Assembly (NCBI RefSeq): GCF_029815055.1 | Contig: NZ_JAPPWA010000002.1 | Coordinates: 1,674,001 to 1,738,000 of the forward strand | Source: Ignatzschineria sp. RMDPL8A | Lineage (GTDB): Bacteria; Pseudomonadota; Gammaproteobacteria; Cardiobacteriales; Wohlfahrtiimonadaceae | DNA: 64,000 nucleotides | Direction of reading: 5' to 3' | Shown here: in pieces, positions 56,522 through 61,269 of the stretch | Layout: each line of letters begins with the position of its first letter | Numbering within the stretch: position 1 is the stretch's first letter | The notes under the pieces: generated by a model | What the model was told of the DNA's origin: nothing | Databases searched by the model: none | The model's input: the letters and a program-made list of their open reading frames with translations, nothing else | Made by a program: the position numbers and the translations under genes

Positions 56522-58801
56522 TTACGCGACATACTTTTTACGCAAGGATTCTGTCGCAGTGACTAAGTTATTCAGCGCTCGACGCACCTCTTCCCAACCG
56601 CGAGTTTTAAGGCCACAATCGGGATTAATCCAGATACGCTCTTTCGGGAGATATTCGGTGGCGTGTTCGATCAATGTCTCAATCTCAGAAACCGTCGGAA
56701 TCCTTGGTGAATGAATGTCGTAAACGCCCGGGCCAATATCATTGGGATATTTAAAATCGCGGAACACATCAAGAAGCTTCATGTCAGAACGCGAGGTTTC
56801 AATGGTGATTACATCGGCATCGAGATTGGCGATCGAATGGATAATCTCATTGAAATTGGAATAACACATGTGGGTGTGGATCTGCGTCTCATTTTTAACG
56901 CCTGACGCGGTGAGTCTAAAGGCTTTTTCCGCCCAATTAAGATACGCAGTTTGACGATCTTTACGCAGAGGCAATAATTCACGAATTGCCGGCTCATCGA
57001 TCTGAATAATCCCAACGCCGGATGCTTCCAACTCCACCACCTCATCGCGAAGGGCAAGCGCAATCTGATAGGCGCTAATTTCATCACGCTCATCATCCCG
57101 CGGGAACGACCAAGAGAGAATCGTCACCGGGCCCGTTAACATGCCTTTAACGGGTTTATCTGTGAGCGATTGGGCATATTTAATCCAATCAACGGTAATG
57201 CTCGAAGGGCGGGAAATATCGCCATAAATGATTGGCGGTTTCACACAGCGCGAGCCATAACTCTGTACCCAACCATATTGCGTAAAGGCAAAACCATCGA
57301 GGTGCTCACCAAAATATTCAACCATGTCATTGCGTTCCGCTTCCCCGTGAACCAGCACGTCGAGCCCGAGTTTTTCCTGCTCCGAAATGGCATATTTAAT
57401 CTGCGCTAAAATCCCCTCACGATATGCTGATTCATCCACATTCCCCAATCTAAATTGACGGCGAATTTGGCGAATTTCATTCGTTTGTGGGAAGGAACCG
57501 ATCGTCGTTGTGGGGAAAAGCGGGAGATTAAAGCGGTCGGCCTGAATTTGAGCACGGGCTTCAAACGGGGCATTGCGCTGATCATCGCCCTTTTTAATTG
57601 AAGCGACCCGGCGAACCACCGCATCGTTATGAATTTTCGTTGAGGTACGGCGCGCCTCTTCCCGATTGCGGGAACGCTCAAGCTCGGCAGCGATCGCCTC
57701 ACGCCCCTCATTAATGCCCCGATCTAAAGTGACAATTTCAGCAATTTTTTGAATGCCAAAGGCAAGCCAATCTTTCACTTCACGATTAAGTTTCACCTCA
57801 GCATCCAGATCAACGGGCACATGAAGCAGCGAGCACGATGAGCCAATCCAGAGTTTTTCGCCCCATTTTTTAGCAAGAGGTTCTAAGATATCAAGGCTCT
57901 TTTCCAGCGCATTCGCCCAGACGTTGCGCCCATCGACAATCCCAAGAGACAAAATTTTATCCGTCGGCCAATGACCCGCAACATTCTCTAAATCACCGCG
58001 CACGCCATCAAGGTGGAGTCCTGCAACGGGGAGGGTTTTAATCGTCTCAATATTACCGGCTAATTGATCAAAATAGGTGGTCAAAATGAGATTATCACTC
58101 ACTTTACCGAGGCTTTCGTAAACCGTTTTAAGCGCGTTTAACCAGCTAGATTCAAGATCGAGCACTAAGATCGGCTCATCAATCTGAATCCACGACGCGC
58201 CCACTTGATTAAGGCGCACGATAATTTCTTCATATGCGCTGATTAATTTGGGTAAAAGCGTGAGCTTATCAAAGGCCTCACCTTTTTCACGAGCTAGATA
58301 GAGCCATGTGACTGGTCCCAAAAGGACCGCTTTCACCGGTTTATCACTAAAGGATTTTGCCCGCGCTACGGCATCAAAAAGACGCTCATGGGAGAGGGTA
58401 AAGGCTTGTGATTTTTCGATTTCTGGCACGATGTAGTGATAATTCGTATCAAACCATTTGGTCATCTCGGATGCAGGTGCGTCCTCCCCTGTCGGCGCTT
58501 GGCCGCGAGCAATGCGAAAGTAGGTATCAAGCGATACAGTTTCGCCGTGTGGGTGATTAAAACGCGGAGGCACAACGCCCAAAAGTACCGAGGTATCGAG
58601 CACATGATCGTAGAGGGAAAAGTCGCCAACGGTGAGTAGATCGAGATCCGCTTGAGCACGCCAAACACTCTCTTCTTCTGTTTTCGCCACCTCTAAAAGC
58701 GTCTTTTGATCGTGCGTTCCTTTCCAATAGCCCTCAAGAGCAAATTTAAGTTCGCGGTTAGCACCAATGCGGGGAAAGCCTAAAATATGAGCTGTGGACA
58801 T
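56522..58801 (-). CDS. metE: Cobalamin-independent methionine synthase MetE
   Basis: MetE methylates homocysteine with methyl-tetrahydrofolate. The 759-residue protein opens with AHILGFPRIG and has the zinc-binding HMCYSNF and INPDCGLKTRGW. The ATG at 58801 has AAGGAGAC, while a frame from 58855 would begin inside the leader. It is preceded by a SAM-I riboswitch, so high SAM should shut it off. Confidence 0.97.
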   Translation of the reverse strand: MSTAHILGFPRIGANRELKFALEGYWKGTHDQKTLLEVAKTEEESVWRAQADLDLLTVGDFSLYDHVLDTSVLLGVVPPRFNHPHGETVSLDTYFRIARGQAPTGEDAPASEMTKWFDTNYHYIVPEIEKSQAFTLSHERLFDAVARAKSFSDKPVKAVLLGPVTWLYLAREKGEAFDKLTLLPKLISAYEEIIVRLNQVGASWIQIDEPILVLDLESSWLNALKTVYESLGKVSDNLILTTYFDQLAGNIETIKTLPVAGLHLDGVRGDLENVAGHWPTDKILSLGIVDGRNVWANALEKSLDILEPLAKKWGEKLWIGSSCSLLHVPVDLDAEVKLNREVKDWLAFGIQKIAEIVTLDRGINEGREAIAAELERSRNREEARRTSTKIHNDAVVRRVASIKKGDDQRNAPFEARAQIQADRFNLPLFPTTTIGSFPQTNEIRQIRRQFRLGNVDESAYREGILAQIKYAISEQEKLGLDVLVHGEAERNDMVEYFGEHLDGFAFTQYGWVQSYGSRCVKPPIIYGDISRPSSITVDWIKYAQSLTDKPVKGMLTGPVTILSWSFPRDDERDEISAYQIALALRDEVVELEASGVGIIQIDEPAIRELLPLRKDRQTAYLNWAEKAFRLTASGVKNETQIHTHMCYSNFNEIIHSIANLDADVITIETSRSDMKLLDVFRDFKYPNDIGPGVYDIHSPRIPTVSEIETLIEHATEYLPKERIWINPDCGLKTRGWEEVRRALNNLVTATESLRKKYVA

Positions 58802-58868: not shown

Positions 58869-58910
58869 CAAAAAAGCCAACACTTTTGCGTCTATCAAGA
58901 AGTGTTGGCT
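58869..58910 (-). terminator. Riboswitch expression-platform terminator of metE
   Basis: On the minus strand AGCCAACACTT and AAGTGTTGGCT form an 11-bp stem with a 14-nt loop and a T-run. The loop and 5' arm (58893-58904) can instead pair with the P1 5' strand of the aptamer. Confidence 0.92.
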
Positions 58911-58925
58911 AAGAATCCAATCTTC

Positions 58926-59036
58926 CTTATCTCTCAGCCGATGAAAAAACGATCATCGCTGTAGGAGTTAGCACCTTAAACATATGTCCAGGTTGCCGGG
59001 TTTCACAGGGCCTATCCCTCCACCACTCTTGATAAG
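58926..59036 (-). promoter_or_regulatory. SAM-I (S-box) riboswitch of metE
   Basis: The minus strand carries the S-box hallmarks in order: P1 CTTATC, AAGAGTGGTGGAGGG, TAGGCCCTGTGAAACCC, GGCAACC, AAGGTGCTAACTCCTACAG and GATAAG closing P1. S-adenosylmethionine should stabilise P1 and allow the downstream terminator to form. Confidence 0.95.
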
Positions 59037-59142
59037 TTGTCGCCTTTTACAAGGCTCTATATATTGATCTCATGCCTTAAAATAAAAAGCAAGTCTTTTT
59101 GCAAACTATTTTTAAATCGTTTCAAAATCAATAATTAATCTT

Positions 59143-59271: not shown

Positions 59272-61269
59272 TTAGAGGCCGATAATATCGCCATCTTCAC
59301 GCTCGATCACAACCGTTGCAGAGCGTGGGCGACCGCCTTGACGGTGATCGGGCCAATTCGAATATTGTGAAGGATTTTTCGCATCGGCATTTCCGCTTGG
59401 CGGTTCACCAGGGTGCTGGATATTGATAAACATCGTTTTGTTATCCGGCGTAAAGGCAATGCCCGTTACTTCCGCCCCGCTTGGACCGGTTAAGAAGCGC
59501 TTAAAGTAGCCTTCATTGGGGTCAACGACGAGCATCTGGTTATTTCCCATCCCCTTATAGACTTTTTGGTTTAAGGTGGAGGTTGAAACGTCCGTTTGCA
59601 CCCAAAGGAGTCCGTTGTGGTCAAATTTCAGCCCATCTGGACTTCCGAAAAGATCGCCACGGTGATTGGCTACATGATTGCGATTTTCCGCTTGATCACG
59701 GCCGGCTAACGCTAAAATATTCCAGCTAAATGCCGTGCCGGTGACATCGCCGCCCTGCTCGAGCCAGTGAATAATGTGCCCAAAGAGGTTATTCGCGCGA
59801 GGATTGGCCGCATCAACGCCAGGATAACCCGCTTCACCACGGTCGCTATTGTTGGTTAGCGTACAGTAGATTGAACCCTGTTGATGAGGATTGGCTGAAA
59901 TCCACTCCGGTCTATCCATTTTCGTTGCGCCAAGCACGTCCGCTGCGCCACGAGCATTAATCACCACATCGCCTTGATCGCGGAAACCGTTCGCCGCTGT
60001 TAATCCATTTTGACCATGAATCATCGGCAACCATTCGCCCGAACCATCATCATTAAAGCGCGCTACATAGAGCGTTCCGTCTGATAAAAGTGCGCTATTC
60101 TCTGTGCCTTTCTTCGGATCATAGGTGCCGTTTGAGATAAATTTATAGATATATTCAAACTTCTGGTCATCGCCCATATAGACCGCAACTTGGCCATTTT
60201 CAGCCACTACCATCTCCGCGCCTTCATGCTTAAAGCGACCAAGCGCTGTATGTTTTACCGGCGTTGAGGTAGGGTCAAATGGATCGATCTCAACGACCCA
60301 TCCAAAGCGATTCGGTTCATTGGGCGTTTCATTGGCATCAAAGCGCTTATCAAATTCGTTCCAGCGATAAACCTCATCTTTATCGGAGATGCCGTAGCGT
60401 TTTTCAAGCGCCGTGCGCTCACCTTTTTTCACAAAGATATCGGACCAGTTCTCTTCACAGGTGAGATAGGTGCCCCATGGGGTTTGCCCGTTTGCACAGT
60501 TTTGCATGGTCCCTAAAATCACCTCGCCATTCGGGTCATCTAAAGTACGCATTAAGGTATGCCCTTTCGCGGGTCCTGAGATTTTCATCGGCGTGTGTGG
60601 GGTAATGCGGCGCGCATATTTTGAGGGACGCACCACTTGCCAATCGCCGCCTGATTTTGAGACTTCAACCACGGAAACTCCCATCGCATTTTGCCCTTTA
60701 CGCACCTTTTCGAGCGACCAATTTTGATCACCATCGGTAAAGAGTAGGCCATTATCGATATACTCATGGTTCATCGCCAGCAGCCCATTTTTCGAGCCGG
60801 CTTTATGATCGCCAATCGGGAAGTAAGCCATGCCATCATGATGCATTCCCGCTTGAGCGAGCTGATCATCGGCGCTGTTGCTACCATCAAATTTAAACTC
60901 CGGCATATTGCCATTTAAACCAACCGCATCGCCCCAACTGTAAAATGCACGCGCTTTATACCCTTTCGGAACGATGATGGTATCTTCTGTTGAAAATGGC
61001 ACCGCTTCAAAGCGAAGTAAACGCGCTAAATCAACACGTCCACCCGCAGAGGCTGCACTTGATCCAAATTTCGCGGTGAGCGTTGTCGCTGCGCCCATTC
61101 CCGGGATCATTGCCGCCCCTAGAATCCCGATTCCAACCCCGGCTTTACGTAAAAGATCACGGCGCGATACGCCTTTTTCGAGAACATCTGAAAATACAGT
61201 ATTTTCACTCTCATTGCTGATCAAATCCCCGTGCGCGGCTTTTAGATAGACTGCTTTTGGCTTACCCAT
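59272..61269 (-). CDS. phoX: Alkaline phosphatase PhoX (DUF839 family)
   Basis: PhoX is a Tat-exported Ca2+/Fe-dependent phosphatase that frees phosphate from organic esters. The 665-residue protein has a Tat signal VSRRDLLRKAGVGIG (about 34-48), longer before the motif as usual for this family. YLTCEENWSD, GRFKHEGAE and FMNIQHPGEPP-like segments lie in the domain. A Pho box and -10 lie upstream. It ends at its own terminator. Confidence 0.9.
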   Translation of the reverse strand: MGKPKAVYLKAAHGDLISNESENTVFSDVLEKGVSRRDLLRKAGVGIGILGAAMIPGMGAATTLTAKFGSSAASAGGRVDLARLLRFEAVPFSTEDTIIVPKGYKARAFYSWGDAVGLNGNMPEFKFDGSNSADDQLAQAGMHHDGMAYFPIGDHKAGSKNGLLAMNHEYIDNGLLFTDGDQNWSLEKVRKGQNAMGVSVVEVSKSGGDWQVVRPSKYARRITPHTPMKISGPAKGHTLMRTLDDPNGEVILGTMQNCANGQTPWGTYLTCEENWSDIFVKKGERTALEKRYGISDKDEVYRWNEFDKRFDANETPNEPNRFGWVVEIDPFDPTSTPVKHTALGRFKHEGAEMVVAENGQVAVYMGDDQKFEYIYKFISNGTYDPKKGTENSALLSDGTLYVARFNDDGSGEWLPMIHGQNGLTAANGFRDQGDVVINARGAADVLGATKMDRPEWISANPHQQGSIYCTLTNNSDRGEAGYPGVDAANPRANNLFGHIIHWLEQGGDVTGTAFSWNILALAGRDQAENRNHVANHRGDLFGSPDGLKFDHNGLLWVQTDVSTSTLNQKVYKGMGNNQMLVVDPNEGYFKRFLTGPSGAEVTGIAFTPDNKTMFINIQHPGEPPSGNADAKNPSQYSNWPDHRQGGRPRSATVVIEREDGDIIGL

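Follow-up and report, generated by a model that had tools for sequence, protein, structure and literature searches.

The leader of metE in the window, by which we mean the whole 64-kb stretch of Ignatzschineria sp. RMDPL8A DNA analysed here, is very probably a SAM-I OFF switch that controls transcription of metE through a strand-swapped expression platform. The antiterminator appears to use the 5' strand of P1, opposite to the textbook 3' strand, a feature missed by the earlier note on this DNA. The metE leader would hence be an ordinary aptamer joined to an uncommon but conserved platform. The aptamer, the terminator, the target gene, the complementarity with its conservation and the relative fold energies were all computed, and it is from sequence and energy calculations that the strand swap appears. 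Somewhat less surely, we also favour the wider reading that the strand-swapped SAM-I is fixed in the metE, metF and metH leaders of one bacterial family, with SAM blocking the toehold, and that these genomes also carry a second, mostly conventional S-box type.

The identity of the leader element as a SAM-I (S-box) aptamer is near certain. The covariance model RF00162 matches the minus strand at 59038-58924, from P1 to P4, with 76.4 bits (E 3.5e-16, gathering threshold 44.4); the match covers the full model (1-108) and is the only one of any Rfam family to reach its gathering threshold in the window. A methionine gene follows; the SAM-I core recognised ahead of metE by the earlier note was well read. 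SAM is presumably the ligand. The gene, coding for cobalamin-independent methionine synthase, occupies 56522-58801 on the minus strand and exceeds the cut-offs of TIGR01371 (1067 bits, cut-off 930) and NF003556. Its start is the ATG at 58801; a 777-aa frame opening at TTG 58855 was rejected as the metE start, being merely the mechanically longest ORF. An AAGGAG motif resembling a ribosome-binding site lies on the same strand between terminator and gene, and a promoter scan returned no minus-strand site for metE. Upstream of the riboswitch, the same strand carries a gene for a PhoX phosphatase (59272-61269), followed by a terminator-like hairpin (59182-59157). A GCCUU/AAGGC hairpin at 59042-59055 adjoins P1 upstream on the minus strand and is terminator-like on the plus strand.

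As in S-box attenuators, an intrinsic terminator (58909-58870, minus strand; fold energy -16.3 kcal/mol) sits between aptamer and gene. Its 10-bp stem is made of the 5' arm GCCAACACUU (58909-58900) and the 3' arm AAGUGUUGGC (58885-58876), which enclose a 14-nt loop (58899-58886) and are followed by six U (58875-58870). The predicted antiterminator, located from the minimum-energy folds of truncated transcripts and from shuffles, joins the P1 5' strand, J1/2 and P2 5' strand (59035-59020, minus strand) to the terminator 5' arm and loop (CCAACACUUCUUGAUAG, 58908-58892). Nine pairs are formed by 59035-59027 with 58900-58892; after a bulge at 58901, 59026-59024 would pair with 58904-58902 and, past one mismatch, 59022-59020 with 58908-58906. 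The earlier note had paired 59034-59024 with 58904-58893 around one bulge, correctly, the predicted helix being slightly longer; its statement that P1 is compatible with the terminator, and that the antiterminator excludes both, also holds. On the terminator side, the eight nucleotides of the core (58899-58892) are wholly inside the loop, and their partners, 59028-59035, include G11 (at 59028) and U5 by our own alignment to the yitJ numbering. The P1 3' strand (GAUAAGGA, 58924-58931, minus strand), the usual switching strand, is apparently without that role here, and the leader does not conform to the classical yitJ-type arrangement of P1 3' strand with terminator 5' arm.

The duplex of the P1 5' strand with the terminator segment was calculated at -16.3 kcal/mol versus -7.0 +/- 2.3 in shuffles of that segment, a strength matched in 2 of 2000 shuffles, and the expected pairs in the window leader amounted to 13.0 for the 5' strand (N5) versus 0.3 for the 3' strand (N3). 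When the ligand-free transcript was folded as it grows, P1 with the aptamer was best through the step ending at 58898, and the long-range 5'-strand helix was best for ends between 58894 and 58878. Transcription of the terminator loop is thus the point at which the ligand-free optimum turns to the 5'-strand helix. P1 with the terminator was best at 58874-58866 and the antiterminator again at 58862-58858. With the transcript truncated ahead of the terminator 3' arm, the antiterminator is favoured over the P1 form by 6.2 kcal/mol in the metE leader and by 6.2-12.3 kcal/mol in 19/19 family leaders. In full-length family leaders the difference ranges from -4.3 to +8.8 kcal/mol, in two-state fold energies that leave tertiary structure and kinetics outside the calculation. 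Such differences imply that ligand energy and timing would decide the outcome, and the predicted behaviour resembles that of a kinetically controlled OFF switch.

From these features we infer termination, its kinetics and a SAM masking step in the metE leader. At low SAM, the terminator loop and 5' arm, as they emerge, would take J1/2, the P1 5' strand and a portion of the P2 5' strand as partners, displacing the P1 3' strand; no terminator would form and metE would be transcribed. With SAM bound, P1 and J1/2 would be locked, the terminator would fold and transcription would stop. Because U5 and G11, placed on this leader by our own mapping from yitJ, are SAM contacts as well as predicted partners of the invading strand, the ligand would mask the landing site directly.

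The arrangement was followed in 28 distinct Rfam-defined leaders of the family, 22 with a TATC form of P1 and six with a TATT form, after the duplicates L006 and L027 had been dropped. TATC-type leaders stand before metF, metE or metH (the gene behind L001 is an MTHFR by Pfam). Among those with a called terminator, 19 of 20 were of the 5'-strand type; the exception, L029, carries a false terminator call within coding sequence. The two TATC leaders lacking a call are L017, cut by the contig end, and L021, which is without a terminator. A set of 19/19 results when leaders are chosen by CTTGAT in the terminator, and 19/20 when that choice is not made. A further metE leader from genome G007 (L190), outside this count, is of the 5' type too. 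L021 and L029 both precede metF in genus group g4 and have no convincing terminator; translational control is possible for them.

Within the antiterminator core, six pairs are invariant in the 19/19 leaders, and positions seven and eight hold U-A or U.G. The ninth position is C-G in 10 leaders, U-A in two, U.G in two and broken in five, so that the suggestion of covariation is thin, resting on a single position broken in 5/19. These counts are not independent events, since the family leaders are related copies. Because the core lies in the terminator loop, terminator function leaves its conservation unexplained. In L010 and L011 the pairs made by the linker nearly equal those of the 5' strand (6.6 versus 6.7).

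Control leaders were collected by a pattern scan that gave at least 120 stretches, many from Bacillota and Chloroflexota by record title. From 124 distinct control leaders, five without an identified P1 3' strand and ten without a terminator were set aside; L096, on the same contig as G009 of the family, was dropped before counting. The 109 counted among the matches listed, run through the same script, comprised 84 of the 3' type, 25 unassigned and none of the 5' type; proteobacterial TATC-type leaders from other lineages (n=22) gave 19, three and none, respectively. Six CATC-type proteobacterial rows stand outside the counts; one of them, L162, passes the 5'-type threshold via a long, doubtful hairpin, which L163 of the same family would not. 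Seven or more uninterrupted pairs between the P1 5' strand or J1/2 and downstream sequence occurred in 32 of 140 leaders, namely 19 family leaders and 13 others. Eight of these 13 were inspected, and several have the complement past a hairpin and ahead of metK rather than within a terminator 5' arm or loop. Of the cases outside the family, L074 and L107 come closest. A downstream complement of the P1 5' strand of at least 8 bp was noted in the metK leaders L043, L077, L086, L088 and L107, in most of them just past a strong hairpin, so the P1 5' strand may serve elsewhere in a different topology.

The second S-box type, marked by TATT, shares with the metE-leader type the genomes, the SAM-I aptamer and the terminator, but its antiterminator is mainly of the 3'-strand kind. 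Four of the six TATT leaders of the family (L003, L025, L026 and L030) were assigned to the 3'-strand type, with 7.4 to 10.7 expected pairs, and the other two were left unassigned. Two more TATT leaders included one clearly of the 3' type (N3 11.3) and one just under the threshold (N3 3.8). The second type is hence mostly conventional. Its examples (L003, L024-L028, L030, L188 at 1505 on the plus strand and L189 at 1678 on the minus strand) often diverge from a metF S-box, a few hundred bases apart. In the window's genus it precedes a 68-aa ORF and metH, and in the Ignatzschineria genus group a gene for a putative lipoprotein, whose sole match was to a lipid-attachment motif and stayed below the cut-off.

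On a conventional S-box reading, the terminator 5' arm of the metE leader would be bound, as in yitJ, by the P1 3' strand plus linker, leaving the P1 5' complement as incidental. Pairing of the P1 3' strand is indeed available at -9.2 to -9.7 kcal/mol, and this is the arrangement of 84/109 controls among the matches listed; however, a 3'-strand duplex of -9.2 kcal/mol is matched by 171 of 2000 shuffles, it accounts for 0.3 expected pairs against 13.0, and the loop complement is kept in 19/20 family leaders, all of which makes this reading unlikely. Less probable still is that the loop motif CUUGAUR was merely inherited from one ancestral leader and has no switching role. Terminator stems (GCCAACA...) are alike across the metE, metF and metH leaders, which are therefore probably copies, as such inheritance would have it. 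Yet the adjacent loop and linker letters have diverged with CUUGAUR retained, the ninth position alternates between C-G and U-A, and the motif is absent from TATT-type leaders in these genomes. A changed ligand has a precedent in the spermidine variants of SAM-I described in the available text of PMC10853860, but the full RF00162 model is matched at 76.4 bits and leaders of this type stand before metE, metF and metH, so that we give this alternative very little credence. The strand-swapped switch is accordingly the reading we retain.

Within its order SAM-I is confined to this family: among the 32 genomes examined, RF00162 was found in 14/18 family genomes versus 0/14 others. The order Cardiobacteriales, to which the earlier note pointed, is plausible, Ignatzschineria being a genus placed there. 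MetJ (PF01340) was found in 0/32 genomes of the order, an E. coli control being positive, which agrees with the earlier supposition that MetJ is not used here. The companion remark that S-box control is best known from Firmicutes is right only in part: SAM-I occurs in 83/398 sampled Pseudomonadota and 10/369 sampled Gammaproteobacteria. The nine gammaproteobacterial SAM-I leaders of the latter sample that lie outside the family have a P1 that begins CATC, and no terminator was called in them. Sporadic SAM-I in gammaproteobacteria, with transfer suggested, is mentioned in the accessible portion of Barrick and Breaker 2007 (PMC2258182). The nearest cores outside the family are those of Clostridia (44 of 52 against the window's core), a weak hint of transfer that is not relied on here; none of the viral contigs scanned had an S-box core with CTTGATRA 85-115 nt further on. 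A 2014 survey of methionine regulons in Proteobacteria (PMC4239095) treats, in its available sections, SAH, SAM-alpha and SAM-SAH riboswitches, and these contain no word beginning 'cardiobacter'. A literature search for riboswitches and Ignatzschineria found nothing, and one for riboswitches and Wohlfahrtiimonas pointed to a single paper, on histidine genes. No 5'-strand SAM-I antiterminator was found in the titles and abstract openings searched, a scope largely outside the subscription literature.

In this lineage, where MetJ is absent, the switch would be a likely means of regulating methionine synthesis by feedback. Moreover, the P1 strand-exchange models examined have the 3' strand changing partners. 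A natural 5'-strand SAM-I group beside conventional S-boxes, if true, would offer a clean comparison of ligand-blocked strand invasion, and the same comparison would show how expression platforms evolve apart from the aptamer.

With the yitJ switch of B. subtilis the metE leader shares the aptamer, the terminator OFF logic, the methionine gene and the use of P1 as anti-antiterminator. In yitJ, as given in the available text of PMC3656099, A4 belongs to the P1 5' strand, U110 to the switching strand and A136 to the antiterminator, and SAM contacts U5, U110 and G11. There the P1 3' strand switches, whereas in the metE leader it would apparently be the P1 5' strand with J1/2. With the purine switches xpt and yxjA the metE leader has in common that ligand binding protects P1 from strand invasion (PMC10907184 and PMC9756952, in the parts available). 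According to the portions available, it is the P1 3' strand that switches in the guanine switch (PMC9495366) and in yxjA (PMC9756952). As described there, the purine switches exchange their P1 3' strand, while the invaded site predicted in the metE leader would include the J1/2 that contacts the ligand.
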